Shown piece by piece: positions 1 through 19,912 of a stretch of 21,160 bases of DNA (positions are counted from its first letter, which is position 1; every line of letters starts with the position of its first letter). The position numbers were made by a program, and so were the translations under genes. The stretch comes from a virus: positions 1 through 21,160 of IMG/VR virus record IMGVR_UViG_3300034198_007831, one strand, 5' to 3'. The notes under the pieces were generated by a model. It was given only the letters and a program-made list of their open reading frames with translations, had not been told where the DNA came from and made no database searches.

Positions 1-66
1 ATAAGGTACATCGAAATGAACTTATATAATTTTAAAAGCTTAAAAAGCTTTTACGGTATTTGCTAA
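1..66 (+). CDS. 3' end of upstream gene (partial; possibly tail assembly chaperone)
   Basis: Frame 1 is open from the left edge to a TAA at 64-66, giving 21 visible residues that end in the motif KSFYGIC. The other two + frames close early: frame 2 starts with a stop at 2-4, and frame 3 ends with TAA at 27-29. The upstream gene therefore ends either at 66 or at 29. The gene immediately 5' of a tape measure gene in siphoviruses normally encodes a tail assembly chaperone, often as two products linked by a programmed frameshift. Both open ends would fit such a pair, but the slippery site would lie outside the window. The assignment rests on position only. The segment could also be non-coding leader. 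Confidence 0.35.
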   Translation: MRYIEMNLYNFKSLKSFYGIC

Positions 67-67
67 T

Positions 68-72
68 AGGAG
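68..72 (+). promoter_or_regulatory. Shine-Dalgarno site that fixes the tape measure start
   Basis: AGGAG at 68-72 lies 5 nt before the ATG at 78. The same frame is open further upstream to a TTG at 60, but that codon has no ribosome site before it and would place this AGGAG inside the gene. The ATG at 78, giving a protein that begins MAGIKVEY, is the better start. Confidence 0.8.
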
Positions 73-77
73 AAACT

Positions 78-3000
78 ATGGCTGGAATAAAAGTAGAGTA
101 CGAACTATCAGATGGTGGCAGTACTAAAAATCTTAATAATGCTACTAGCTTATTAAGAGAAAATATGGATGGAGTAACAGCTGCAGCAACTAGAGCTAGT
201 GCTGCGGCTAAATCTGCTATGGCTGCAAGCGCTGCGCCAAAAACTGCCAACGCCATTAAAGCCGCTAGTGCATCTACAGCTGATAAAGTTGATATGTACG
301 ACCAAGCCAGAGCTGGAGTAGGCACTGGCGCGGCTAGTCGTGACTTTGCTAAGCAAGCGCAAGGATTAGGCGGACTAGTACGTGTTTATGCTACTTTTGC
401 TGCTAACTTATTTGCGGTAACTGCTGCGTTTACAGCACTTAAAGAAGCAGCTAATACAGAAAACATGGTTAAAGGCCTAGATCAACTTAGTGCTGCTGGT
501 GGACAAAGTCTAGGAACTCTTTCAAAGCAAATAGCTGCTACTACTGGTGGAGCACTGTCCTTGCGCGACGCTATGACAGCAGTTGCACAGGCAAGTAGTG
601 CTGGTCTAGGTACTAAGCAGATTCAAGATATTGCAGTTGTTGCTGGTAAAGCATCACAGGCATTAGGTATTTCAATGACTGACGCAGTAAGTCGTCTAAG
701 TCGTGGTATTTCAAAAATTGAACCAGAATTGTTAGACGAAATAGGTATTTTCGTAAAAGTTGATGATGCAGTAAATAGATATGCCTTATCGGTAGGTAAA
801 ACTGTAACTTCACTAAGCGACTTTGAAAGACGCCAAGCTTTTGCAAATGCTGTGTTAGAACAAGGTAAACAAAAGTTTGCTGCAATTGAAGCAGCTCCAA
901 ATCCTTACGATAAACTATTAGCAAGTGCGTCAAACTTACTTACTGCAGGATTGCAAGTAATAAATAAAGTACTAACACCAATATTAGATATACTAGCACA
1001 ATCGCCTACAGCTTTAACGGCTGTTTTTGGTTTAATAGCTATTACACTACTAAAACAAGCAATACCTGCTATAGGTGCTTGGAGAGAAGAATTAACTAAA
1101 TCAGCCGATGTAGCTGCTAAAACAGCACAAAAATCCTATGAAGCTTTTAGAGATTACTCTATTGCAAAAAATCTTGAGAGAGAAGCAAAAGATATAGTAC
1201 CAATTCAGCAAAGAATTAACGCCAATATTGCTGGTGCACAAACAGAGCTAGCTAAAACTTTATCTGATAAATCCAAAATTTTATCTCAAGCAATGTCAGG
1301 CACAGTTGATCCTCAAGCTATGGATAAGCTAGTAAGCACAGAAGTAGCTAGACGCACTACTATACTAGAGAAAATTAAAGCTACTGCAGCTGCAGATGCA
1401 ACTGCGTCTGCAGCTAAAAAATCTGCATATGCAGAAACTATTGCCCTACAAGAAAAAGAAATAGCTAGACTTCAAGTTGCCAGCACTTTATACAAAGAAG
1501 TTGCTGCGGATAGACAACTAATAGCCGCTAGACAGGCTAACACAGATAACGCGGCTGCAACTCGCGAAGAAAAAAATAGAAAAATTATTGCAGATAGCTT
1601 AACAAACAAAGCTACCTCAGCAGGAATACTAGCTCAAGTAGGCTCAGATACTAACTTAAAAGGCACAAAAGAAGCTTTTAGATCTCTATTAGATAATGTA
1701 AAAAATGGTATACCTATATTTGATGAAACTGGAAAAACAGTAGGCAGAGCTACATCTGGATTAAAAGGCTTGGGAGCTGCAGCAACAATTGCAAAAGGAA
1801 GTTTAGTTATACTAGGTTCAGCAATAGGTACTGCGTTTAGCGCAGCATCAGGCGTACTGCAGGCTATAGGGGTTTTAGTTGGTATTTACCAACTTTTAAA
1901 TTCTGTTGCTTCAAGTGCTACAAAACAACAAGATGAGTTTAATACAAAAGTAGAAGAAAATAACAATGCTGTAAAAACAGTTAATGACACTTTTAAGCTG
2001 TACACTACAGCCAAAAAAGAGGCTTTTGGCATAGAGGGAATATCAGCGTTTACTACTGCACTATCAGGTGTCACAAAATCTTTTGATGAGCAACTTGATG
2101 CGCTTAATAGATTTCGCAAAGCCGCTGGCGTGTGGGATAAATTAAAAGATGATGTTGCTGGTATTTTTGGAAAATCTAATACTGACGAAATTAAAAAGAA
2201 TGCTGTAGATAGTATTCAAGCAATATTAAAGTCGCTTCAATTTAGTAGTGGCAAAGAAAATGCAAAAAGTATTTTGGGACAAGTAGTACCAAAAGAAGCC
2301 TTGGAAGATACTGAAGAACTTAAAAAAGCAATTGGAAAATTAAATGACGCTGATTTAAGTAAATTAGCTAGCTCTTTTAAAATGATTGAAGAAAGTCAGC
2401 AGTTTAGTACAAATGCAGCAAAAGGATTCTTAGAAACTTTAAAGTCTATTAATAAAACTGTAGACCAAATTATTCAAAGCAACGCTTTTACGGATTTGCA
2501 AGGCAAGCTAGGTGTTGACTTAGTAAATGCTGCAGATCAATTTGCACAAGCTTTAACAGATCCATTAAAAAGTGTAGCTGTTTTAGAAGAAATAACAAAG
2601 AATCCAAAACTATTTGCTATTATAGGTCCAGAGCAAATAGAGTCTTTGTTTAAGGCACGAACTATTGTAACAGAAATTGGTAAACAAGAAAAAGAAGTAG
2701 AAAAACTAAGACAAGAGTTTGAAAAGTTTGGTCCTGCAACTGAAAATCTTTCTGGTAATTACGATGCTCTTGGTAACGCTATCGGTGAATCGCTTGGACA
2801 GTCTAATACAGAAATAAGAAACGAACTAGAAAGTAATTATAAAGCTGCGGAAGCGTCTTTAACGGGATTAAAGACTAAAGCTGAAGAGTTTTCTATGAGT
2901 CAGGCCAACCTTGTTAAAACGCTAACTGATGAAGGTTTTAAAAGAATTGCTTTGGGTTTAAAAGAAGCCACTCAAAAAGCACAGAATAGCATAAAGGCGT

Positions 3001-6000
3001 TTGACTTAGGTCAAGCTGCTTCAGCAGGACTAAATACTGCAAATGAAGAGTATAAGCTAAAAATGGCTGATATTAGAATACAGACAGCTTTAGTTGAGGC
3101 TTCTTATGTTGCAGAACTTGCAACTAGAAAAAATACAGAAAAACTTGAAAAATTAACCGTTGAGCTAGAACTAGCTCGTGCTCAAGCTGCACGTACAAAT
3201 CCAAAAGCTACCGAAGATGAGAAAAAGGTAGCGGGTCTTATGGCAATATCCGCACAAGAAGCACTAGATAAAATAAAGGCAAAAGAAGACTTAAATGCTG
3301 GAGAAAGTGTTAAAAATGTAGAAGCTAAATATGGTACAAAAGCGGTACAACTAGCTCAGTCCAGTATTACTAATGATAAGATACCTGAAATTAAAAAACA
3401 AGCAGCTTTAAGTGGTCTTAAAGCCGACACTGTTATTGCAGGCAAAACTCGCGATATTAAAAACGAAGAGTATGCTTTTAAATTAAAAAGTGATGGGCGA
3501 ACCTTAGACTTAGAGTCTTTAAAACTACAAGAGTTAGCTATAAATAACGCACAGCAAATAACTAATATAGGTACAGTAGGCTTATTAGATGCAAAAGAAG
3601 AACTGCAACTAGAAATACTAGCGCAAGAAACAAGTAATCAGAGAAAAAAGATAGAAGAAGAAATAAGAAAAATAAATAAGTCTATAACTCCTGAGCTAAA
3701 AGAAACTGCAGATGCTGAGTTAAAAATTGAAAGATCTAAACTAGAGCAATTAGGTATTAGTGAACTAATAAAAGAAGCTAGTATAAAAGATAGTAGTATT
3801 CGTGCAAAGAGTGCAGACAGAGAAGCCCAACTAACTAAAGAAGCAGAAATTCGTATACAAAATGAACAAGATGTTAATTCTATTAAACTTGCTCAAATTT
3901 CTTTGTATGAAAAGCAAATAGATGCTCAACTACAGTTAGGAACTATTGATGATAAATCAGCAGTTCGTAAAAAAGCTGAATATGAATTACAGCGCTTAAT
4001 ATTAAAAGCTGAAGAAGACGAAAATAAAGCTCAGGATAAAGTAGACCTAAAAGCTGAAGCATTAGTTAAGGCTAAAGAAATATTACAAAGAGCTGATGAG
4101 TCACAAAGACAATTAAAAGCCTTACAGGATTCATATTTAAAACAAAGGCAAGATGCCCTAGAAAGTGGTACAGTTACAGCTGAAAATTTAGCTACTCTTC
4201 CAACAGTTTCTGTAGAAGCCCAACAAAAAGTAGATAACGAAAAAGAATTAGCAAAAGCTGTAGAAGCAAGAGCACAAAGTGAATATAATGCAGCTATAAG
4301 ATCAAAAGAAGCTATAGCTGGTGTAAACGAACTTAGTAAACAATCTATTGAAGACCAAAAAGCACTTAGTCTTGAACTTATTAAGCAAGCAGACCACTTA
4401 AGCAACATATCTAATATTACTAATTCTTTGTCTGCTGTTTTTGGAGATTTCGGAAAAACTCTTGGCGATGTAATTAGTAAATTTGATACTATGTATACTA
4501 ATGACCAAAAGAGAGCAGAGCAATTAAAGAACGCAGTAAAAGGTACTAAGGAATATAGTGATCTTGAAAGAAAAAACACTCAGGCACAACTAGCAGACGG
4601 TGCTTCTTTGATTGGCAGTGCAAAAAGTTTATTTAAAGAAAAAAGTACTACATATAAAACTATGGCAGCACTTGAAAAAGGCATACATATAGTTAATATG
4701 GCAATGAGCGCTCAGCGAATGGTTCAACAAAGCCTAGAAACTGGTGGTTTATTAGCAAACATAGGTACACGTATTACTGCAACTGTGGCTGCTGCTGAAG
4801 TAGATGGTGTTGCAGGCGTAGTAAAATCAGTTGCTAGCTTGCCGTTTCCAGTTAACGTAGCTGCAGGTGTTACAGTAGCTGCAATAATGGCAGCACTAAT
4901 AGGTCAAATTGGCGGAAAGGGACCAGGGTATACTAATGCTGCTACAAATACTGGTACTGGCGTTGGTGGAGGAGATAACAGCTCCCCAAGCGAAAGCTTA
5001 GCAAAATCAATTGAAATACTAGCACCAGCTGATCCTATAATGATGAAAAATAGCTCAGAAATGGTTAGGTACTTGCGTAATATTAGTGATAATATTGGAA
5101 ACTTTGGACTTGCACTAAGTAGAGCAGGAGTATTAGAAGGAAATGCTGCTGCTGCTAAAACTGGATTCAATACTACTAGCACAAGTAATATGTTGCTATG
5201 GGGAGGTCAGTTTATAAGAGATATAGGCGGTGCACTTGGTTTAGGCACAGTAATGGATAGCTTATCTAAAGCCTTAGGTTTTGGTACAAAAACAAGTATT
5301 GAAGGTCAAGGTATTACTGCAGGCCCACAGTCTATAGGTAGTATAAGACGAAGCGGATTTAGCGGTAACTTTTATACTAATATAAAAGAAGAAGACAAAG
5401 CTTTAGGAATAACTTATAGCAGTAGCACCAGAACTGTACTAACAGGCTTTACTAAAGAGCTAAGTGATGCACTTACAAATGTATTTGATTCAGTAGGAAA
5501 CGCAATATTTTCTTCAGCAGAAATACTTGGTAAGGATTCTGTTGACGTAATGAAAAAAATAGATGCTTTTGTTGTTAATTTTGGTAGTGTAGGAATTGGA
5601 GGTGATGCTTCAAAAACTATTGAAAATATTGCTGGACAACAACTAGATTTACTAGTACAAAGCGTGCTTCCAGAAATGGAACCTTTTAATAAACAAGGTG
5701 AACGTTTAGGCGAAACTTTGTCAAGAGTAGTATTTGGTATAGATTCAGCCTCAGTTGCTCTAGATAATATAGGTATTGAAGCTATTAAGTATACTGATAT
5801 TATTAATAAAAAAGGGGATGTAGGGGCAGAAATTGTAAGACAGTCTATATTAGCTGGCGAAACTCAGAGTTTAATAAAAGATGTTATTAAAAATGCTAAC
5901 GGAACTGCTGAAGATGTAGCTGAGCTATATACTAAACTAGACACATTACGAGATACTATAGTAGATCTTGGAATTGATCAAGAGTTTTTAAATAGAAGCG

Positions 6001-7337
6001 TAATAATTGCTGCAGGTGGAGTAGATAAGTTTAGTGAAGGAATAAACACATTTTTTGGTAAATTTACAACAGAGGCATATAAAACTTCTATTGAAATTGA
6101 CAAAGCAAAAAATGCTTTTAGTAAGTTTGGTGTAGCTATACCAGCTACTAGAGAAGAATTCTTTGAGTTATTTAATACTCTTTCAACTACTTCCCCAGAA
6201 GCTGCAGGCGGATTATTAAAAGTAATCGATTCCATAGATACAATGTATACTAGTACTGAAGCAATACTAGAAAAACAAAAATCAGCTTGGGAATCTTTCT
6301 TTGGTACATTTGCTTCGGCTAGTCAAAAGACTTTTAATGAAACTCTAAAGATAACTACTGTATTTAATAAATTCGGTCTAGCAATACCAAAAACTAGAGG
6401 CGAACTATTAACATTAGTTGATGGATTACGAACTACAGCGCCTGATACTGCAGATGCTATAATGGAGTTATCTTCTTCATTTAGTACTTACTATAGCGCT
6501 GCTGGTAGCTTTGAAAACGTTACCTTATCTTTAAGTAATAGTTTAAAAACTACTACTGAAAGTTTAAAGTCTCAGATTAAAGCACTAAAAGACTACGATA
6601 GTTCTTTGGTACTCGGTTCACAATCAACTTTAACAGCTACAGAACAGTATAGTTTTGCTAAAGATGAAGTAACAAGACTAAAAGGTATTATAGATAGTAC
6701 ACCAACAACAGCAGCAGAAGAAAAGACTAGAAATGAAGCTATTGGTTCGTTTACTAAAGCTACTGATAATTTCTTAAGATTATCTAGCAGCCTTTATGCT
6801 AGTGGAGCACAGTATTCTAGTGACTTTAACTTAGTAAGAACAGCCATTAAAAATACTAGCGCTGCTTTAGAAACTCAGCTAACTGATGCCGAAAAACAAC
6901 TAGCAAAATTAACTGAATCTAATAGCTTCTTAGAAGATATTAGTAATTCAAGTAAAACTACTTCAGAATTAATTACCAAATATTTAGAATTAGGGGGAGT
7001 GTCTATTACTGCACCTAAAGCTGCACTAGGTACTAATTATGTTCCACACGATATGTTGGCACAAATTCACGAAGGTGAACGTATTATGCCAGCAGCAGAT
7101 AATGCAATGTTAATGCAAAATCTTAACAGTGGTAACTCAAGTAATCAGCAGCTGCTTACACAAATTGCTCAACTAACTAAACAAGTTGAAGACTTGGCAG
7201 CAGTTGTAGCAGATGGTGCAATACTAAATGCTAAAGCAACTGATCGTAATACTGAGCAAATAACAAAAGTCATTACTACTAGCAATGACAAGACAATTCA
7301 AGCTAATCGCTTACAAGCTAAAGCTGGTATAAAGTAA
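78..7337 (+). CDS. Tail tape measure protein
   Basis: This 2419-residue protein would set tail length as the tube assembles around it and be ejected with the DNA. An Ala-rich N-terminus is followed by hydrophobic stretches at about residues 97-121, 312-330, 570-613 and 1588-1613. A long, charged, helix-rich Lys/Glu/Ala region lies at roughly 620-1450. A Gly-rich linker (GTGVGGGD, about 1625) precedes a segment ending SEMVRYLRNISDNIG, an arrangement familiar from tape measures of proteobacterial phages. Two copies of an FxKFGxAIPxTR motif begin at residues 2013 and 2095. The C-terminus carries GTNYVPHDM (about 2318) and EGERIMPAADN (about 2333), a typical tape measure ending. I see no peptidoglycan hydrolase motif. 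The gene is much longer than lambda H (853 aa) or T5 pb2 (about 1200 aa). A terminator follows directly. Confidence 0.96.
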   Translation: MAGIKVEYELSDGGSTKNLNNATSLLRENMDGVTAAATRASAAAKSAMAASAAPKTANAIKAASASTADKVDMYDQARAGVGTGAASRDFAKQAQGLGGLVRVYATFAANLFAVTAAFTALKEAANTENMVKGLDQLSAAGGQSLGTLSKQIAATTGGALSLRDAMTAVAQASSAGLGTKQIQDIAVVAGKASQALGISMTDAVSRLSRGISKIEPELLDEIGIFVKVDDAVNRYALSVGKTVTSLSDFERRQAFANAVLEQGKQKFAAIEAAPNPYDKLLASASNLLTAGLQVINKVLTPILDILAQSPTALTAVFGLIAITLLKQAIPAIGAWREELTKSADVAAKTAQKSYEAFRDYSIAKNLEREAKDIVPIQQRINANIAGAQTELAKTLSDKSKILSQAMSGTVDPQAMDKLVSTEVARRTTILEKIKATAAADATASAAKKSAYAETIALQEKEIARLQVASTLYKEVAADRQLIAARQANTDNAAATREEKNRKIIADSLTNKATSAGILAQVGSDTNLKGTKEAFRSLLDNVKNGIPIFDETGKTVGRATSGLKGLGAAATIAKGSLVILGSAIGTAFSAASGVLQAIGVLVGIYQLLNSVASSATKQQDEFNTKVEENNNAVKTVNDTFKLYTTAKKEAFGIEGISAFTTALSGVTKSFDEQLDALNRFRKAAGVWDKLKDDVAGIFGKSNTDEIKKNAVDSIQAILKSLQFSSGKENAKSILGQVVPKEALEDTEELKKAIGKLNDADLSKLASSFKMIEESQQFSTNAAKGFLETLKSINKTVDQIIQSNAFTDLQGKLGVDLVNAADQFAQALTDPLKSVAVLEEITKNPKLFAIIGPEQIESLFKARTIVTEIGKQEKEVEKLRQEFEKFGPATENLSGNYDALGNAIGESLGQSNTEIRNELESNYKAAEASLTGLKTKAEEFSMSQANLVKTLTDEGFKRIALGLKEATQKAQNSIKAFDLGQAASAGLNTANEEYKLKMADIRIQTALVEASYVAELATRKNTEKLEKLTVELELARAQAARTNPKATEDEKKVAGLMAISAQEALDKIKAKEDLNAGESVKNVEAKYGTKAVQLAQSSITNDKIPEIKKQAALSGLKADTVIAGKTRDIKNEEYAFKLKSDGRTLDLESLKLQELAINNAQQITNIGTVGLLDAKEELQLEILAQETSNQRKKIEEEIRKINKSITPELKETADAELKIERSKLEQLGISELIKEASIKDSSIRAKSADREAQLTKEAEIRIQNEQDVNSIKLAQISLYEKQIDAQLQLGTIDDKSAVRKKAEYELQRLILKAEEDENKAQDKVDLKAEALVKAKEILQRADESQRQLKALQDSYLKQRQDALESGTVTAENLATLPTVSVEAQQKVDNEKELAKAVEARAQSEYNAAIRSKEAIAGVNELSKQSIEDQKALSLELIKQADHLSNISNITNSLSAVFGDFGKTLGDVISKFDTMYTNDQKRAEQLKNAVKGTKEYSDLERKNTQAQLADGASLIGSAKSLFKEKSTTYKTMAALEKGIHIVNMAMSAQRMVQQSLETGGLLANIGTRITATVAAAEVDGVAGVVKSVASLPFPVNVAAGVTVAAIMAALIGQIGGKGPGYTNAATNTGTGVGGGDNSSPSESLAKSIEILAPADPIMMKNSSEMVRYLRNISDNIGNFGLALSRAGVLEGNAAAAKTGFNTTSTSNMLLWGGQFIRDIGGALGLGTVMDSLSKALGFGTKTSIEGQGITAGPQSIGSIRRSGFSGNFYTNIKEEDKALGITYSSSTRTVLTGFTKELSDALTNVFDSVGNAIFSSAEILGKDSVDVMKKIDAFVVNFGSVGIGGDASKTIENIAGQQLDLLVQSVLPEMEPFNKQGERLGETLSRVVFGIDSASVALDNIGIEAIKYTDIINKKGDVGAEIVRQSILAGETQSLIKDVIKNANGTAEDVAELYTKLDTLRDTIVDLGIDQEFLNRSVIIAAGGVDKFSEGINTFFGKFTTEAYKTSIEIDKAKNAFSKFGVAIPATREEFFELFNTLSTTSPEAAGGLLKVIDSIDTMYTSTEAILEKQKSAWESFFGTFASASQKTFNETLKITTVFNKFGLAIPKTRGELLTLVDGLRTTAPDTADAIMELSSSFSTYYSAAGSFENVTLSLSNSLKTTTESLKSQIKALKDYDSSLVLGSQSTLTATEQYSFAKDEVTRLKGIIDSTPTTAAEEKTRNEAIGSFTKATDNFLRLSSSLYASGAQYSSDFNLVRTAIKNTSAALETQLTDAEKQLAKLTESNSFLEDISNSSKTTSELITKYLELGGVSITAPKAALGTNYVPHDMLAQIHEGERIMPAADNAMLMQNLNSGNSSNQQLLTQIAQLTKQVEDLAAVVADGAILNAKATDRNTEQITKVITTSNDKTIQANRLQAKAGIK
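6114..6512 (+). repeat. Tandem protein repeat within the tape measure
   Basis: Two copies about 82 residues apart share the pattern [AV]FxKFGxAIPxTRxE, then L..L.TT.P..A. The first begins at residue 2013 (AFSKFGVAIPATREE) and the second at 2095 (VFNKFGLAIPKTRGE). The DNA copies have diverged, so this is an old duplication or a repeating structural unit. Similar FG..P.TR units occur in tape measures of other proteobacterial phages. Confidence 0.7.
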
Positions 7338-7341
7338 ATAT

Positions 7342-7372
7342 AGTAAGGGCTTTTTAGCCCTTACTTATTTTT
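7342..7372 (+). terminator. Intrinsic terminator after the tape measure gene
   Basis: A perfect 10-bp stem has arms AGTAAGGGCT (7342-7351) and AGCCCTTACT (7356-7365), a TTTT loop, and then TATTTTT. It starts 4 nt after the tape measure stop. The next gene's ribosome site, AAGGA at 7373-7377, follows at once, so there is no room for a new promoter between them. Transcription of the tail-tip genes must pass through this element. Confidence 0.85.
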
Positions 7373-7382
7373 AAGGATAAAT

Positions 7383-8201
7383 ATGGCAAATTTAAGAGTA
7401 TTATACAATAATCTTGCAGATAGTGCAACTATTACTGCAAGCTCAACTGTATTGGGCTACGCTATAGCAAATGTTCAAAATATTAAAAAAACTAGTGTGC
7501 ATAGGTCTGCTGCTACTACCAATACTGTTACCTATACTCTGAATTGGACCTCTGATCAGAAAATAAACGGTGTAGCGTTACCAGCAACTAATTTAATAAA
7601 TGGTTCCACTATTAGGGTAACCTTATATAATTCTGCTGGCACACTACTAGCAGACAGCAATACAGTAGCTGCCTGCAAAGATAAAAATCCAGAACTAAGC
7701 GTGGCTTATACAAGTAACGTTTTTCCTTATAGCGGCGCTACTAAAACTAGTATATGGTTTGATACTTTATACAGTACAGTAAGAAGAGTAGATATAACTC
7801 TTACGCATGCAAATAGCCTTACAAGTATAGATTGTTCAAGAATAGTTTGCGGAAACTACTGGGAAAGTACTAGACAAGCAAGTAATGGTATAACTGTAGG
7901 AGTAGTAGATAACAGTATTATAACTAATACTAGATCTGGGGACTCTTATGTAGATCGTAGACCTACTATTGAAACTATGCAATTTCAGTTACAGTACATA
8001 AATGATAAAGATAGAAAAACACTATTAGAAATTATGAAAACAGTAGGTTCAAGCGGTTTAGTATACTTATGTATATTTCCTGATAATACTAACCCCGAAA
8101 TTACGCAAAGCTATTCTATATACGGAAGAAGTCAAAGTAACTCGCTAGAGTATGCCTTATATAGTCTATATAATACTAGTTTAAATATAAATAGTTGGTA
8201 A
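7383..8201 (+). CDS. Minor tail protein, beta-sandwich N-terminus
   Basis: This 272-residue protein follows the tape measure gene, where siphoviruses encode tail-tip components. The N-terminal part (about 15-95) has SSTVLGYAIANVQN, an HRS, then KINGVALPATNL and IRVTLYNSAG. This resembles the galactose-binding-like (F5/8 type C) beta-sandwich pattern found in tail proteins. The C-terminal half includes DRRPTIETMQFQLQYI and KTLLEIMKTVGSSG, suggesting a second, mixed domain. There is no signal peptide or membrane segment. AAGGA lies 5 nt before the ATG, which supports this start. Three nucleotides separate its stop from the next start, indicating translation as a unit with the hub-like gene. A minor structural tail protein, possibly in the distal-tail role, is the best call. 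The family name is uncertain. Confidence 0.7.
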   Translation: MANLRVLYNNLADSATITASSTVLGYAIANVQNIKKTSVHRSAATTNTVTYTLNWTSDQKINGVALPATNLINGSTIRVTLYNSAGTLLADSNTVAACKDKNPELSVAYTSNVFPYSGATKTSIWFDTLYSTVRRVDITLTHANSLTSIDCSRIVCGNYWESTRQASNGITVGVVDNSIITNTRSGDSYVDRRPTIETMQFQLQYINDKDRKTLLEIMKTVGSSGLVYLCIFPDNTNPEITQSYSIYGRSQSNSLEYALYSLYNTSLNINSW

Positions 8202-8204
8202 CAA

Positions 8205-9701
8205 ATGAAGACAGTAACCGAAATAATATCTTGGCTAAATACGCCTGGTCATGTAAAGTGCACTTTAATAGACATAAAAGATGTAGTTACCAAACTTACA
8301 CCAAAAACTGAAGAAGATGTATATTTTTCAAGTGCAGTATACAATAATAATGATAACTTATCTTATATTCCAATAATTAATGGTGGTTTAAATTTTTCTG
8401 AAAGCTTATCTATAGACGGAAATATATCTAGTGGTTTTGGTAGCTTAGAGCTTACAAATGCTGGTGGTGCTTATGACTACTTTTTAGATTACATTTGGAA
8501 ACGCAGGCCTGTAAAAATTTATTTAGGGGATATTACGTGGCCTAAATCTGACTTTGTAATGATATTTGATGGACTTATAGAAGACTTAGCGTCTACTAAT
8601 GAAAGTACGTTAGTCATATCTTTATTTGATAAATTACAAAGATTAAACGATAATATTAGTGAAACTAATCTTAGTACTACAGAGTATTCTCAAAACACAG
8701 AACAAACACTATTGCCATTACTATTCGGGGAATGTTTTAATGTACAACCACTACTTGTAGATAATGGTAGTTCTTTAGATGGTGGTCAAGTATATATGTA
8801 CCATAATGGTCCAGCAAAAGGAATAATTGAAGTTAGAGATAATGGCAATCCAATAGAAGTTGACGAAGATATTACTACTGGAACTTTTACATTACAGACT
8901 GGCCCAAGAGGAACTATAACTTGTAGTGCACAAGGAAGTACTCCCTACAACAATACTGTAGCAGGTATTATTACTACTTTAGTTAAAAATTACGGTGTTG
9001 AAATAAATAGATTTACTGATGCAGAAATTAACTTTGCAGAATTTACAAATAATAGTAAAGTCGGTATATACTGCAAAGATAGAACTAATATACTAGATGC
9101 ATGTTCTCAACTAGCAAGAAGTGTTAATAGTGGATTAGTATGTCCAAGTATAACTTTAGAGGCTAATGGGACTGTAAGTGCCAGTAAGTTAAAGTTAGTT
9201 GAATTAAAAGAGCCTTCTGGTACTGCAAAATATACTTTTACAGATGCCTCTATGGTTGAAGGAAGTTTATCAGTAACACAAACTTTTCCTATACGCACAG
9301 TATTAAAGCTATCTTATTGTAAAAATTATACTGTTCAAACTTCGATTGTTGCTGGGTTAAATCCTACAATTAATTTTTCTCAAGAATATTTATTTGCTGA
9401 CTTTAGTGATGAAACACTGCAAGAACTATATAAAGATAACGGTACAGTGGAGCCAGATGAAACATTACTTATTGTTGAATCTGAAGCACAAACTGAGTTA
9501 ACTAAAAGAAAAAATTTATGGTCTAAGCCAAGATTTCTAATAACGGCTACTTATTTGCCAGAACATATATTTGTTCAATTAGGCGATATTGTAAGTATAC
9601 AGTCTACTAGGTTTAATTTAAGTGTAGCTAAAAAAGGAATAGTTTTTTCACTTAACAGAGATTGGTTAAGTGGAATGATTGAGATAGGAGTATTAGTCTA
9701 A
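8205..9701 (+). CDS. Tail hub / baseplate-like structural protein
   Basis: This 498-residue protein probably forms the central hub at the tail tip, between tube and fibres. Visible features are GNISSGFGSLELTNAGGAYD (about 65-85) and a KRRPVKIYLGD segment with FDGLIEDL (about 97-130). LLPLLFGECFNVQPLLVD (about 165-182) leads into a YMYHNGPAKGIIEVRDNG stretch, a combination I know from hub-like tail proteins of proteobacterial siphophages. The C-terminus reads LGDIVSIQS, then NRDWLSGMIEIGVLV, similar to the closing beta-structure of hub proteins. It has no clear Shine-Dalgarno and starts 3 nt after the previous stop, so translational coupling is likely. Its stop overlaps the next start (TAATG). 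With the following gene it may perform the job that lambda does with the single J protein. Confidence 0.75.
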   Translation: MKTVTEIISWLNTPGHVKCTLIDIKDVVTKLTPKTEEDVYFSSAVYNNNDNLSYIPIINGGLNFSESLSIDGNISSGFGSLELTNAGGAYDYFLDYIWKRRPVKIYLGDITWPKSDFVMIFDGLIEDLASTNESTLVISLFDKLQRLNDNISETNLSTTEYSQNTEQTLLPLLFGECFNVQPLLVDNGSSLDGGQVYMYHNGPAKGIIEVRDNGNPIEVDEDITTGTFTLQTGPRGTITCSAQGSTPYNNTVAGIITTLVKNYGVEINRFTDAEINFAEFTNNSKVGIYCKDRTNILDACSQLARSVNSGLVCPSITLEANGTVSASKLKLVELKEPSGTAKYTFTDASMVEGSLSVTQTFPIRTVLKLSYCKNYTVQTSIVAGLNPTINFSQEYLFADFSDETLQELYKDNGTVEPDETLLIVESEAQTELTKRKNLWSKPRFLITATYLPEHIFVQLGDIVSIQSTRFNLSVAKKGIVFSLNRDWLSGMIEIGVLV

Positions 9702-12212: not shown

Positions 12213-15200
12213 ATGGGAATACCAACGGCAGCACAAAAACAGCTATACGCAAGATTAGTAGTTACTAACAATAGTACTGCTGAAGCTTTTCCTGACAGCT
12301 ATTACGATGACGAAAGCTTAGTACAAACAAATAATAATAATAGTTATTTGGCAAAAGCTGACGTGGTTACTCAAAATGTTTCTTCTGTAGAAAATAACAA
12401 AATACTATCCGAGGAGTACTCAGGTAGTTCTAAAAGTTATTCTGAAAGTTCCGCTACATCAGCAACCCAAGCCGCTGCTTCAGCTATTGCTGCTGCAACT
12501 GCCAGAGATGTTGCAACACTATCTGCAGGAATTTATGCTACTGAAGCAGCAGGAATTGCAGGTACAACTGTTGGTAAATACTTTAGCGTACCTTCGTCAC
12601 TTAACACAGAGTATTTAAATTTATACTTACACGAAACCGAAACTACTGCACGTAAAATACAAACATACCCAAGTGTTGCTGGTTTAGAGTATAGTGTTGA
12701 AAATACACTATATATATCCGCTAATGGCTCAGACAGTAATACTGGAACTTCTTGGGCAAAAGCTTTTAGAACAATAGAAAAAGCTTTACAAGCTGCTACC
12801 GAAAGATGGAATACATATAATAAAGCAACCCTTATAGAATGGGCTCCTGAAAGCATAGTTTATACTAAAGGGCATTTAGATATGCCTGATAATTGTGTTA
12901 TTAAAGCTGTTCACCGTACAGTATTTGTACGCCCATTTGATGATAGCTATGCTGAGCGTAATGTGTTTCGTATGGGTAGTGGTTGTTTTCTAGAAGGCGT
13001 AATGTTTGAAGGCTGGAGACTTGACAGTTTAGAAAATCCTACAGAAGGATTTGCAGTAAGCTTTAGACCTGGTGCAGTAATTACTCGTGTGCCTTATGCA
13101 CATAAAATTGCTTGCCGCGCATTACCAACTTGGGGTATAATTGCTCCTCCGTTAGACGCTGCAAATGCAAATCCTCTTGTACCACGTGCAGGTGGCGTAG
13201 CTCTTGCTGACGGTAATATTATTTCCCAATATAGTATATTTCCTAACATTATGACTTGGGGTGCTACTCCAGTTTTACCAAATGGTATAGGTTATTGCGC
13301 AAAAAACGGTGCCCTTATTAACGCGGTTAATGCTGTTAGTATTTGGGCACACAAGCATTTTCTTGCCCAAAGTGGCGGACAGATTATTTTATCTGCTTGT
13401 TCTACACAGTTTGGTGACTACTCAATGGTTGCGGATGGTGGCAGAGATATACTTAACCCAACTAAAACATACGCAGCAACTAATGTTAATAATACTATAC
13501 CTAGATTTACTACTAAAGCCGATAAAGATTGTATTAGTGATTTAGTTAATCCAGCTAAGCAAACTACTTTAGTTGATGAGATGTGGACAGAGCTTTCGGG
13601 TATAGGGTATACGGATAGTTGGAGTAATACTTTACAGCTAAAAACAAAATCTGACGCTAAACTACTATTGCAATGTTTATACTGGACCCTAAGCAGTGGT
13701 AATGAGCAGCCAATGCTTGATTTTGCAAAAGGTATGTTTGACGTTAACGCCAAGCCTGTTTATATTTCTGCAGCTAAATCTTCTGTGCCCATTACCGAAG
13801 AAACAGGAGCTTTAGCTAGAAGAGTTCAAAATAATACTAGTTTTGCAGCACAACTTAAAGCTTCGCAAGACACAATAGCAGACACTATGTGGACAGCTTT
13901 AGTTGACAGAGTTTATGTGTCTACTTGGACAGAACAAGACGAATACTATACTAAAAGAGACGCTAAAACATTACTAACAGCACTAGAAAGAGCTTTGGTT
14001 TATGCAAACGAGCAGTATATGACAGACTTTGTAAGAGGCCTATATTACACTGACGGAAGCCTAGTAATAGAATATCAAAAACTTCCAGCAACTTTATATG
14101 CTTGGCAAAACATGAAAACCAGTGTTTTAAACTTAAGCAGTGTTGGACCAACAACTGGAAATTTATACTTAACTATAGAAGCACTATTTAATGCTTTAAT
14201 ATCTAATTTTAGTTTTAAAGGCGACGTTACTTTTAATGCTAATTCTAGAGCTCGTGCAGAAGCAAAACTTTTGAGTGCAGGCGTCCCTACTGGAGCTATA
14301 ACAGGTCAAACACTTTGGAATAGTATTGTTGCTAAAGGATACAACAGTTATTTAAATAACACAACTGATGAAGGCTATACTAAAAGAGACGGAGAAACTC
14401 TGCTAACTGCACTAAGAGAGTGCACGGTTCCAACCACAGGGTTTAATCAAAGCGAACTACCTATGTTAGATTTTGCTTATGGACTATATTCGTTTTTTGG
14501 AACTTCAGTAATTTCTGCTGCAAAAATGCCAGCAGTATTATTATCATTTGATAAAGTAGAACAATTTATAGCAACCTACGTAACCGACACTAATGCTAGA
14601 ACTGTTATATCACGTATACTTACAGCACTAAAAGAAAATATTACTTTTAAAAAATTAACTACGTTTCCTACAAGTTTAGAGGCAGCAAATAAAATAACTG
14701 AAGCTTATGTTTTTGGAAGAACAGATGATTTAGCAGCATTAATAGATGTTGCATGGACAGCAGTACAAGCTGAAGCAACATATTTTAATAATAATGCCCT
14801 AACGCTTTCAGACGCTACAGCTACTAAAAATTACGCAAAAAGATTTGCAAAAGCACTAGCAGAGTGTTTTAGATTAGGATCAGATCAGCCAATGATTAAT
14901 TTTGGCAATCAGTTACTTATATCTTTAGATGTGTGTGTAATAGAACCAACTAAAGTTGCAGGAACACTAAGAGTATTTAAACTTTTAGGCAATCAACTAG
15001 TTAATAAATTAGGTGCTTATAGTATTGATGTTGCTAATATAATAACAAACTTAGAATCTAATTTAATTTGCAACAAAAATGTTTTACCTACTTTAAGCGC
15101 AACAGGTATAGCTAATTTAAAAAATGCTGCTGCACTTATTAAAAACTATCAAGAGTCTATAATAGAAAATACTTGGACAGCTTTAACACAAGATTCAAAT

Positions 15201-15932
15201 GTATTTGGTACAGGTAAACTAACGCAAGAAGACATGGTGCTTACTAAACGCGATACTTTAACCTTGCTAACAGCAATACGTGGTGTATTAGATACTTTTA
15301 CCGAAAAACCAATACTTAACTTTGCAAGCGAAATGTTTTTGCCTGCACGAGTGCCTGTTATTACTGGTGCAAAAATAATTCCAACTGTGTACTCATTTAA
15401 AGTTTTAAAAGATTATCTTAATCCCCCAGGAACCACTACTCCTGTAGAAGCTTCTGGATCTATTTTGGGCAATTTAATTAGTAATGCTACCCTAAACTCT
15501 AATAAGTACGCATTTGTATTTTGCTGGAATTTTATAAAAAAATACGTACGCAATACAATTAATGCTACAGGCAGTGCTTTACTAAAAGATACCGCTGACG
15601 CTTTACTAGATACTTTAAATACTAACGTGCTAATTCCTGATACAATACAAGAGCCTAGCCGAATTACAGCTATTGGCCATACTTGGACTTCTGTAATGGG
15701 CGGTGTAGCGCTTACAAAAATTCCTCCAGCAAATAATGCTGCTACAATTCAAGATTCTATTGTCGAAAGCGATAATGGTATTGTTATTGCGTCAGGACAA
15801 GACGATCAAGGTAATGCCCTGTTTGTGGGCGGATTACAAATAAATTCAGATACTGGCGAACTAGGCGGACCTCCATTCGATCAAGCCGTTAGACGAGTAG
15901 CAACAAAAACATCAATATCCAGGAGTTTCTAA
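12213..15932 (+). CDS. Large tail fibre with beta-helix-like region and repeats
   Basis: This 1239-residue fibre-like protein has a likely virion-attachment N-terminus (1-60). A Ser/Ala-rich helical stalk follows at about 62-115 (SGSSKSYSESSATSATQAAA). From 167 it has YISANGSDSNTGTSWAKAFR and then TIEKAL, the usual opening of right-handed parallel beta-helix proteins such as tailspikes and pectate-lyase-like folds. The beta-rich region continues to about 440. Five degenerate repeats occupy about 457-1070. The C-terminus (about 1176-1239) has GQDDQGNALFVGGLQINSDT, GPPFDQAVRR and ends TSISRSF; it may be a conserved trimerisation or tip unit. No catalytic residues can be assigned, so enzymatic depolymerase activity is unproven. 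The start has AAAGG at 12197-12201, 11 nt upstream, and follows its own promoter. Its stop overlaps the next ATG by 1 nt. Confidence 0.8.
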   Translation: MGIPTAAQKQLYARLVVTNNSTAEAFPDSYYDDESLVQTNNNNSYLAKADVVTQNVSSVENNKILSEEYSGSSKSYSESSATSATQAAASAIAAATARDVATLSAGIYATEAAGIAGTTVGKYFSVPSSLNTEYLNLYLHETETTARKIQTYPSVAGLEYSVENTLYISANGSDSNTGTSWAKAFRTIEKALQAATERWNTYNKATLIEWAPESIVYTKGHLDMPDNCVIKAVHRTVFVRPFDDSYAERNVFRMGSGCFLEGVMFEGWRLDSLENPTEGFAVSFRPGAVITRVPYAHKIACRALPTWGIIAPPLDAANANPLVPRAGGVALADGNIISQYSIFPNIMTWGATPVLPNGIGYCAKNGALINAVNAVSIWAHKHFLAQSGGQIILSACSTQFGDYSMVADGGRDILNPTKTYAATNVNNTIPRFTTKADKDCISDLVNPAKQTTLVDEMWTELSGIGYTDSWSNTLQLKTKSDAKLLLQCLYWTLSSGNEQPMLDFAKGMFDVNAKPVYISAAKSSVPITEETGALARRVQNNTSFAAQLKASQDTIADTMWTALVDRVYVSTWTEQDEYYTKRDAKTLLTALERALVYANEQYMTDFVRGLYYTDGSLVIEYQKLPATLYAWQNMKTSVLNLSSVGPTTGNLYLTIEALFNALISNFSFKGDVTFNANSRARAEAKLLSAGVPTGAITGQTLWNSIVAKGYNSYLNNTTDEGYTKRDGETLLTALRECTVPTTGFNQSELPMLDFAYGLYSFFGTSVISAAKMPAVLLSFDKVEQFIATYVTDTNARTVISRILTALKENITFKKLTTFPTSLEAANKITEAYVFGRTDDLAALIDVAWTAVQAEATYFNNNALTLSDATATKNYAKRFAKALAECFRLGSDQPMINFGNQLLISLDVCVIEPTKVAGTLRVFKLLGNQLVNKLGAYSIDVANIITNLESNLICNKNVLPTLSATGIANLKNAAALIKNYQESIIENTWTALTQDSNVFGTGKLTQEDMVLTKRDTLTLLTAIRGVLDTFTEKPILNFASEMFLPARVPVITGAKIIPTVYSFKVLKDYLNPPGTTTPVEASGSILGNLISNATLNSNKYAFVFCWNFIKKYVRNTINATGSALLKDTADALLDTLNTNVLIPDTIQEPSRITAIGHTWTSVMGGVALTKIPPANNAATIQDSIVESDNGIVIASGQDDQGNALFVGGLQINSDTGELGGPPFDQAVRRVATKTSISRSF
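13581..15420 (+). repeat. Five degenerate ~100-145 aa repeats in the fibre
   Basis: Units begin at residues 457 (MWTELSGIGY), 559 (MWTALVDRVY), 701 (LWNSIVAKGY), 847 (AWTAVQAEAT) and 987 (TWTALTQDSN). Each continues with a [YL]TKRDxxTLLTAL-like helix and then a [QKL]PMLDFAxGLY-like motif. Most end with a PVIxxAK-like segment and a hydrophobic helix. Unit 4 has lost the KRD. Spacings are 102, 142, 146 and 140 residues. The DNA copies are strongly diverged. Confidence 0.75.
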
Positions 15933-16465: not shown

Positions 16466-19400
16466 ATGGGCAATTTAAGCGATACAAAATTAGTTTCTGG
16501 AAGAACTCCTGTTATTGGCTACAGCTATAGCAAAGCACCAGCTAGCGGAGAACTAAATAACGTACTGCCTCCAGAATCTTTTGAAGGTTCTTGGGTATAC
16601 TACGAAAATCAAATGCAATTTTCTACTGGCACAGAGTGGAAAAGCACTGATCCGCCTGTTATACGTACACCTTCTGCTGCTGCACCTAATCCAAATATAC
16701 TTTTAACTAAAAGACAGTTAATTTTAACAGGCTACTCAACAACAGTTGCTGGATTAAGGCTACTGTCCGCAAGATTTCAAATTAGTTTAACAAGAGAGTT
16801 TGTTAATCCAGTAACTTTTTCAGTAGAAGCTGCTGTAACACTTCCAGTAAACTTTGTTAAAGATCAGTACTATACTATTTTAACTCTTGGTACAACTAAC
16901 TGGACTGCAGTAGGTGTAACAGGACTTGCAGCAGTAGGTACTGTTTTTAAAGCTACTGGACCTGGAACTGGAACTGGAAATGCTACCCTTAATGTTAATA
17001 CTTATACATTAAAAGCTAGCGAACCTGATATACGCTTAGTGCCTGGTACGGTTTACTATTGGAGAGGTAAATATGTTGCTGAACAAAATCAAGAATCTGC
17101 ATGGTCTTCCATAACACCTGGAGTTTTTCCTGAGTATATAGAAACCCCAAAAATTATTACTACTACTGGAATAAGAACAGCAACAATAACAGTATCCAGA
17201 TTTTTAACACCGTTTAGTTTGCCAGGAGAAGCTGTTTATAATAACACAGTATTTACATTATATAATCAGCTTGAGGGAGATCCCTTAACACCTAATATAA
17301 CTGTAATACAAGGTAATATTGATGTAGCTGCAACTGTTCCTAAAACTATTATAGGTGCTAATCTTCCGTACTATTGGAAAGCTAGACATACAGCTCGTTT
17401 AACTATTGACGGTGTTAACGTCTCAGTAAGCTCTCCTTCAACTAGCGTACAAACTCAACGACAAGTATTAGATGTATTTACGCCAGAAATAGACTGCTTA
17501 ATTGGTGTACCTTTAATAGAATTAAAAGTTACAGCTTTTGGTTCTAGTATTACTCCTGCTCCTGTTTTAAGTAAAATTCTATGGGAGTTTTACTCAAGCC
17601 CAAATATAGACGAAGGTACTATAGGTATAGTAGAAGAAAACTACAATGCTTTAACTATGACTCTTGATACAATTCGTAAACTAGATCTTAGCAGTCAAAA
17701 AGTAACTTTTTTAGAAGACGAAAAGCAATATTATTGGAGATGTAGATACTTAACTACAACAGGTACTTATTCTGAGTATAGTACTCTAATACCCGTACTA
17801 TTTATTAAAGCAGCAATAATATCTACGCCTGAAGTACCTACAGCTTTTCAAATAAACTCTGAAATAACCGCTTTTGAATTAAAAGGGTTTAAGAGTCTTT
17901 TTGATTTAGCCTTTGTAAGAACTAACTACGAAGTATATCGTAATGCAACTATTGTACAAGGTGTGTCGCCACTACTAGCAAGAAGCAGTCTAAGTGATAC
18001 AACAGGTTTTATATTAGCAGGTTCTGATCCCGATTTAGATAAAGGCAATATTTATTACTGGCGAGCTCAGTATGAAGGAAGAAAAGGCCTTCCTGGTACA
18101 CCTAGTTCATTTAGTCCTTGGACACCTTTATTTCCTTATATACAGCCTCCTTCTATTGCTACACCTGCTCTTAGTATAGTTACTACTTTAAATGCAGATA
18201 ATTTAGTACCACAACCCACAGTATCACTTCTAAGCACAGCTTTTGAAAAATTATCTGAACTAGTAAATGAAACTCATGTATCTAGTAATTGGGAACTATA
18301 TGAAAGCGGTAGTGCTAGTCCTTATCAAAGACTACTGAATAGTACCCAAAATTTACTTAGTTGGAGCCCCCTTGACCTTAGACCAGGAAAAGTATATACA
18401 GCAAGAGTTCAACACAACGGTGCATTTGATAGCTCTGGTTGGAGTAATGTTGTAACTTTTCAAACTGTTCCTGTGTTTAAAAATGAAGTCGATAAGCCAA
18501 ACCAAAATCCTGTAAATCAGAATAATCAAGCACTACAACTTAGAGACTACTGGCCTGCTGGAGGCGGCTGGTATGCAGCAAATATGTGGCAGTATGAAGC
18601 AGAAACTCCTAGTGCTGGCAGTATACTTATTGACAATCTTATTATTCTTAACGATAAAACTGTTACAGGTCCTGCAGTAACAAATACGGAGAACCACTTT
18701 GAGTTTAACTTAACAGATGCGTACGACACGCCTTTAGAACAAAACAAAGTTCCTATTTTTTACCTAGGACAAAGAGTAAGCTTAAGATCAAAACAAAACA
18801 CTGAAACTAGACTGGAGGGCTATATAGTTAAAGCTTACGGCCAGTATATAACTGTAGGTGTATTTGAGATGTTTATTGATACCTTTCCAAAAACAATATC
18901 AGGCGGATTTTATATATTAGCGCCCTATAGATTAGTTTTAGCCCCTAAAGCTAGTGGTGAACAAGCCACTTTTAGTGATGGTGATCCTATATTTGACTTT
19001 TATGCAGCTGATAGCTTTGATAGTAACGGTAACTATGTTAACGATGAAAGATTTGTAAATGGAGAATTACTACGTACGCCACCCTTACCATTTGAAGTTT
19101 GGAGCAGCACAGAAGGTAAAAGAATTACAGAGTCACTAGTTAAATATCCACTTTCACAATATTACTGCAAGCCAGCAGTCTGGGCAATGAGTAGAACAAT
19201 AAATGGAAAAAATGACTGGTACATACCTGCAAGAGACGAGTTAACAGCTATATTTTATAATTGTCATAATTATCTATATCCTCCTCCTAGCGCAAGCTAT
19301 TCAGTAGCAGACATGACTAACCCAAATAGTAGTCTCTACGCACCTTGGGGATTTGTTTATAGAACAACTAGTTATACTAACTATACTAAACAAAAATTTA

Positions 19401-19912
19401 CGGAACTTGGCTATAGAATAGGCTCTGGCACGGGCTTTAAACGTAATGATAAAAAGCAAATCTTTAGTGGTTTTGGAGAACGTGTAGATAGAACTGATGA
19501 TTTTTTTGGATTAAATCGTAATTCTTATCCTGAACAAATAGAATATAATACTCCTACTCCAGCAACATATAATACCGTTCCTGTAAATGGAGCATATCCA
19601 CAAACCAGAAGACAGCCACCCCTTACTGATCCGTTAGTTGAGATGGGTAGTACATTTGGTTACGCATGCTCTACGTTATGGCACGTTTTGGGCCCTTATA
19701 CTAGTAATCGTAAAGAATACGAAACTAAACTTGCTAATGGTACTTATCCTAATGCCTATACTCCTCCGTATAAGGGGCAAAACAATGGATTAAATGCTAT
19801 TTATATACTAACAGGGAAAAACGCAAATTATCCTGGTGCTTGGCAGCATGAAGAAACTGATGACCCTGAGACTGGTGTATCCCTTAGGTTAGTAAGAAGG
19901 GAAAGAATGTGA
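16466..19912 (+). CDS. Receptor-binding-type fibre: FN3-like repeats plus DUF1566/C-type-lectin-like tip
   Basis: This 1148-residue adhesin-like protein has an N-terminal 1-85 segment that may anchor it to the virion. Five fibronectin-III-like modules follow, each marked by a [YT]YW[RK]xxY-like strand at about 196, 300, 420, 528 and 642; the fifth is degenerate (VYTARVQHNG). At 130-175 is a separate small motif, YYTILTLGTTNWTAVG, then GTVFKATGPGTGTG, known from phage fibre proteins. The C-terminal third (about 700-1148) has YRLVLAPKASGE, then NDWYIPARDEL at 916-926, and ends VSLRLVRRERM. These are hallmarks of the DUF1566/Lcl family, a C-type-lectin-like fold used in phage receptor binding. 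AGGAG at 16450-16454 lies 11 nt before the ATG. The last codons overlap the next gene by 4 nt. Confidence 0.8.
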   Translation: MGNLSDTKLVSGRTPVIGYSYSKAPASGELNNVLPPESFEGSWVYYENQMQFSTGTEWKSTDPPVIRTPSAAAPNPNILLTKRQLILTGYSTTVAGLRLLSARFQISLTREFVNPVTFSVEAAVTLPVNFVKDQYYTILTLGTTNWTAVGVTGLAAVGTVFKATGPGTGTGNATLNVNTYTLKASEPDIRLVPGTVYYWRGKYVAEQNQESAWSSITPGVFPEYIETPKIITTTGIRTATITVSRFLTPFSLPGEAVYNNTVFTLYNQLEGDPLTPNITVIQGNIDVAATVPKTIIGANLPYYWKARHTARLTIDGVNVSVSSPSTSVQTQRQVLDVFTPEIDCLIGVPLIELKVTAFGSSITPAPVLSKILWEFYSSPNIDEGTIGIVEENYNALTMTLDTIRKLDLSSQKVTFLEDEKQYYWRCRYLTTTGTYSEYSTLIPVLFIKAAIISTPEVPTAFQINSEITAFELKGFKSLFDLAFVRTNYEVYRNATIVQGVSPLLARSSLSDTTGFILAGSDPDLDKGNIYYWRAQYEGRKGLPGTPSSFSPWTPLFPYIQPPSIATPALSIVTTLNADNLVPQPTVSLLSTAFEKLSELVNETHVSSNWELYESGSASPYQRLLNSTQNLLSWSPLDLRPGKVYTARVQHNGAFDSSGWSNVVTFQTVPVFKNEVDKPNQNPVNQNNQALQLRDYWPAGGGWYAANMWQYEAETPSAGSILIDNLIILNDKTVTGPAVTNTENHFEFNLTDAYDTPLEQNKVPIFYLGQRVSLRSKQNTETRLEGYIVKAYGQYITVGVFEMFIDTFPKTISGGFYILAPYRLVLAPKASGEQATFSDGDPIFDFYAADSFDSNGNYVNDERFVNGELLRTPPLPFEVWSSTEGKRITESLVKYPLSQYYCKPAVWAMSRTINGKNDWYIPARDELTAIFYNCHNYLYPPPSASYSVADMTNPNSSLYAPWGFVYRTTSYTNYTKQKFTELGYRIGSGTGFKRNDKKQIFSGFGERVDRTDDFFGLNRNSYPEQIEYNTPTPATYNTVPVNGAYPQTRRQPPLTDPLVEMGSTFGYACSTLWHVLGPYTSNRKEYETKLANGTYPNAYTPPYKGQNNGLNAIYILTGKNANYPGAWQHEETDDPETGVSLRLVRRERM
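16715..18470 (+). repeat. Five fibronectin-III-like modules
   Basis: Modules recur every 104-120 residues with a [YT]YW[RK]x[RKQ] strand near the end of each: VYYWRGKYV, LPYYWKARHTA, KQYYWRCRYL, NIYYWRAQYEG and VYTARVQHNG. Four are followed by an S-x-W-S or S-x-Y-S type turn. The DNA is diverged, so repetition is visible only in the protein. Confidence 0.65.

Follow-up and report, generated by a model that had tools for sequence, protein, structure and literature searches.

Tandem helical repeats, homologous to cyanophage tail-fibre units and predicted to resemble phycobiliproteins, in a phage fibre protein

T4-like cyanophages of the Kyanoviridae encode a helical unit that is repeated two to five times in beta-helix-like tail-fibre proteins, such as S-PM2 p091, Syn1_101 and ACG-2014j gp088 (PHROG 5342 and 4527). 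Neither Pfam nor NCBIfam names this unit. We found it, with Cys-x-Arg-Asp retained, in 112 phage records, 111 of which are named as Synechococcus, Prochlorococcus or cyanophages and one as a single-cell marine virus. Homologous repeats are present in the IMG/VR virus record IMGVR_UViG_3300034198_007831, of which we analyzed positions 1 to 21,160 (the window, 21,160 nt). Two other described systems are close to the protein that carries them. The tail fibre of Agrobacterium phage 7-7-1 (9rkv) shares with it a predicted right-handed beta-helix trunk, whereas the window fibre has a large, putatively phycobiliprotein-like insertion near its C-terminal end. Phycobiliproteins (PF00502; phycocyanin, allophycocyanin and the bilin-binding domain of ApcE) have the fold A/B-E-F-G-H predicted for the window unit. 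They differ by the X-Y helices, which pair alpha with beta and which the unit appears to lack, and tandem repetition in a fibre is a feature of the window and not of phycobiliproteins.

The window encodes, in this order, a tape measure protein, two proteins without assigned function, an 809-aa protein, the fibre protein and an 1148-aa protein. The neighbor gene at 8205 matched no isolated phage by tblastn. The downstream 1148-aa protein (16466-19912) shows a weak match to Ig_Rha78A_N, just under the cut-off (E 4.5e-6), and another to Lcl_C (E 0.03). The features are:

60-7337: tape measure gene, 2425 aa
12213-15932, + strand: tail fibre/spike-like protein carrying the repeats, 1239-aa ORF
12213-12677, + strand: N-terminal part (aa 1-155), Ala/Ser/Thr-rich by composition, differing between relatives
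12690-13502, + strand: predicted right-handed beta-helix (aa 160-430), from AlphaFold strands, VIA and tblastn
13566-13784, + strand: unit 1, limited to its first half with helices A/B-E-F (aa 452-524), profile E 1.7e-29
13836-14222, + strand: unit 2, complete (aa 542-670), from AlphaFold, Foldseek/VIA and the residue map
14307-14645, + strand: unit 3 (aa 699-811), TKRD, profile E 1.8e-33
14739-15068, + strand: unit 4 (aa 843-952), TKNY with Arg-Asp lost, profile E 7.2e-29
15156-15485, + strand: unit 5 (aa 982-1091), TKRD, profile E 1.4e-31
15507-15629, + strand: displaced second half, helices G-H, the probable counterpart of unit 1 (aa 1099-1139), E 1.2e-8 at profile positions 72-111
15642-15929, + strand: conserved C-terminal beta segment, EPSRITAIGHTW...ELGGPPF...SISRSF (aa 1144-1239)

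Judging by its composition, the N-terminal part is probably a stalk and attachment region. The fragment aa 150-1239 matched PHROG tail fibre and baseplate wedge families, with a best E value of 2.6e-11. It gave five PHROG matches and the full-length protein none; the N-terminal part seems to mask these matches from the filters. The beta-helix part is similar to S-RIP2/KBS-P-1A (tblastn E 9e-10), and the C-terminal segment is 70-89% identical across 12 relatives.

An earlier, sequence-only reading of this DNA had described five diverged helical repeats at 13581-15420, and the array proved to be real. Tryptophan motifs lie at aa 457, 559, 701, 847 and 987, spaced by 102, 142, 146 and 140 residues, close to 142 after the shorter first interval as that reading had it. 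KRD occurs at aa 581, 724 and 1012, and P[MI][LI][DN]F at aa 500, 750, 893 and 1033. The best 30-residue self-matches score 45-66 (BLOSUM62), above the maxima of 20 shuffles (24-39), and a unit profile aligns five domains on the fibre protein (aa 452-524, 554-666, 699-811, 843-952 and 982-1091) with E values of 2e-29 to 1e-41. As this profile was seeded with the window's own units, independent support comes from five nonseed relatives with equal domains. The divergence of the units is old, as had been supposed, because they are mutually only 23-38% identical in protein and DNA likeness is left in a single 48-bp stretch. Unit 4 has indeed lost its KRD, with TKNY for TKRD, and unit 1 has TKSD besides. 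The array extends beyond the end first given, to aa 1139 (nt 15629), and unit 1 is probably short because its second half, G-H, is displaced to aa 1099-1139. In the AlphaFold model the array is all-helical, with beta structure on both flanks.

The repeats had also been called unfamiliar and without match to a named domain. For names this stands, as the region has none in Pfam, PHROG or NCBIfam. Matches do exist, however, and a search of other phage fibres revealed homologous units in cyanophage tail fibres. With an HMM of the window-type units, the seven best matches among cyanophage proteins were all cyanophage units, above the best decoy. Profile-profile comparison of the two types gave 95%, E 2e-8 and a score of 45.7 (shuffles ≤20), and larger alignments gave 96% and E 3e-9 over 99 columns (hhalign). 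This profile homology covers the whole unit. By profile and prediction, the window units are carried by a beta-helix fibre protein, as are those of cyanophages, although by eye their position on the trunk differs. A tblastn search with the window-type unit alone matched no isolated phage.

The predicted structure of one unit provides another match. We modeled unit 2 of the window with AlphaFold from 51 aligned units. The model (pLDDT 91.7, pTM 0.86) has five helices, at aa 542-565, 574-596, 601-608, 621-639 and 650-670, in the globin-like order A-B-E-F-G-H. Foldseek ranks 1-23 in the PDB are all phycobiliproteins, with probabilities of 0.97-1.00, TM scores of 0.57-0.72 and E values of 0.08 at best; myoglobins reach only 0.36-0.52 TM. 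All 50 entries listed by VIA are phycobiliproteins too, with Z scores of 15.2 to 13.7 over 115-132 residues and an rmsd of mostly 2.1-2.7, a range to be read knowing that unrelated helical models can reach Z of about 14. A second, separately aligned model again gave a phycobiliprotein-like unit 2. The training structures of AlphaFold include phycobiliproteins, and the Foldseek E values are not small. The weight of this evidence lies in its consistency and coverage, together with sequence tests independent of any model. The matches start at about residue 30 of phycobiliproteins, which indicates that helices X-Y are missing; the unit spacing leaves them no room. On this model the window unit is phycobiliprotein-like and not a phycobiliprotein, as it lacks X-Y and the bilin cysteine.

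In the sequence tests, a 17-unit profile of the cyanophage type searched against all PDB sequences had phycobiliproteins as its 39 best matches (best E 7e-5). Every match better than E 0.4 was a phycobiliprotein, phycocyanins coming first, and another selection of units gave a best E of 5.6e-4. Against 165 phycobiliproteins from cyanobacterial genomes, the hhalign score was 28.7 with window-type units, 38.5 with cyanophage-type units and 42.7 with both combined, compared with at most 16.5 for nine other gene clusters and 21.1 for 60 column shuffles. The units of the window and of a close relative (L052) alone scored 26.8 (shuffles ≤18.6). With a phycobiliprotein HMM, 35 real phage stretches, mostly located at the units, outranked all 216 decoys. 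The Pfam phycobilisome model matched three of 18 phage contigs, all below the cut-off (14.5-17.9 bits at best vs 22.2) and in two of the three with the best match inside the fibre gene; PF00502 had no match in the window at the family cut-off. A single cyanophage-type unit was not significant by phmmer (phycocyanin E 1).

For the window type taken by itself, similarity to phycobiliproteins is weak: the hhalign probability is only 28% (P 6e-4), and its profile retrieved no phycobiliproteins from the PDB with HMMER. This search was not significant; what supports the window type is the model, together with the bridge formed by the cyanophage-type units. Globin-like helical folds do recur, and helical spacers might have converged on such an arrangement without common descent. 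We consider this unlikely, since the cyanophage-type units, clearly homologous to those of the window, match phycobiliproteins significantly. Moreover, Cys-x-Arg-Asp and the upstream A/B helices align, and the register is the same for both unit types and for sequence and structure. The first PDB match of the window-type profile was the type III secretion tip protein IpaD (E 0.02-0.03; 0.02 in the search above). We rejected a relation to IpaD, which we regard as highly improbable, because this match is limited to the F-G-H part and IpaD is absent among the Foldseek and VIA matches listed.

At the bilin site, units 1-5 read TKSD, TKRD, TKRD, TKNY and TKRD; in unit 2, T580-K-R-D583 takes the place of Cys84-x-Arg-Asp87 of phycobiliproteins. 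Thus none has the bilin cysteine, and the window domains are most likely pigment-free beads. Cyanophage units keep this cysteine (23 of the 23 counted) where window-type units mostly have Thr, and both types keep Arg-Asp. This conservation without Cys suggests a structural role of Arg-Asp, which makes the retained cysteine weak evidence of pigment binding. It counts against the idea that fibres took over host phycobiliprotein domains whose Cys-x-Arg-Asp copies in cyanophages bind bilin covalently in the virion, which we hold to be very unlikely. We found no earlier report of phycobiliprotein-like domains in phage tails in a literature search that covered open-access papers and few preprints or subscription papers. 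If our assignment is true, tail fibres of cyanophages and uncultured phages are built in part from a cyanobacterial light-harvesting domain, so far nameless there. A fold would thereby be assigned to large stretches of cyanophage fibres that lack annotation. This raises the question of whether the domain passed from host to phage or in reverse, and makes its origin, like possible bilin binding in the virion, testable.

The array had been taken for a fibre shaft. The protein is fibre-like, and five tandem repeats whose number differs among relatives would suit a shaft running in line. However, beta-helix templates align on both sides of the array, the modeled units are globular and not rod-like, and single-unit relatives carry theirs after the last beta turn and ahead of the C-terminal segment. 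An in-line shaft is therefore, in our view, a distinctly unlikely reading. The long AlphaFold model is weak overall (pLDDT 63.5) and good in its first 160 residues. VIA aligned it with pectate lyase-type beta-helices over 207-264 residues and, at Z 14.4, with the tail fibre of phage 7-7-1 (9rkv_N). The aligned ranges, from about residue 13 to about residue 1059 of the model, are given by first and last residue only and are thus indicative. They suggest a beta-helix that is taken up again beyond the array, with the C-terminal segment continuing it, which in turn points to an inserted side chain of domains.

Searches of viral contigs for relatives yielded sets of 7, 35 and 80 loci that overlap in part. 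Of 41 distinct proteins, the majority carry a single unit, located after the last beta turn and before the EPSRITAIGHTW segment, and the others have three to six. With A and B as the first and second halves of a unit, the window and three relatives (L003, L004 and L005) show the layout A-(AB)n-B. L052, whose start is cut off, has (AB)4-B, and L068 has five complete tandem units. Six proteins (L031, L048, L086, L104, L105 and L113) are organized as A-[other units]-B, the inserted units being of the cyanophage type CxRD...GGN. In the tree, first halves from multi-unit proteins group in a single clade (0.986) near the single-unit relatives, a pattern that fits growth of the array within one ancestral unit; the second halves were too short to be resolved. 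L003 seems to contain a duplicated block of two units (aa 535-1077), as its units 2-3 and 4-5 are still 76% and 68% alike in DNA. The unit alignment A3 was nowhere conserved well enough to scan a collection with it. A scan of bacterial genomes found no encoded relative, hence no clue to a prophage or host, and psbA and CpeT were not found in 18 related contigs, many of which are fragments.

We consider it probable that the window protein is a beta-helix fibre with an inserted chain of phycobiliprotein-like beads. In such a tailed-phage fibre or spike, the chain would exit the trunk near its end and form five phycobiliprotein-like (globin-fold) domains, one of them split and the others complete, ~140 residues apart. 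It would then re-enter, and the conserved beta segment would complete the trunk. Unit 1 (A/B-E-F) would probably be completed by G-H at aa 1099-1139, the other four domains lying in its F-G loop. Duplication and insertion at this loop would shift the copy number, which ranges from one to six in relatives. The most likely use would be a protruding, length-adjustable bead chain giving the fibre reach or extra contact surface. Reach, avidity and receptor contact may each be its role, the bead chain being our best guess and receptor contact a close rival. It is possible that the array is itself the receptor-binding part and diversifies through copy number. It is a variable part flanked by conserved ones, and by eye related phages carry other domains at that place, for example ACG-2014f, whose stretch there we take to be LamG-like. 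Its units, however, show old divergence and not hypervariability.

Two further observations concern relatives. The N-terminus of the L007 protein (5506-7791) resembles Pseudomonas phage proteins (29-43% identity), suggesting that unit-bearing trunks may attach to different phage bodies. In a 382-kb phage, a 334-aa protein (L201, 1462-2463) with an N-terminal CTRD matched the Pfam phycobilisome model below the cut-off (E 0.006) and was not significant by phmmer. A second tail protein of this phage, a 1641-aa frame (L202, 1-3174, minus strand), carries five or more CxRD units, which follow a beta-helix-like part.
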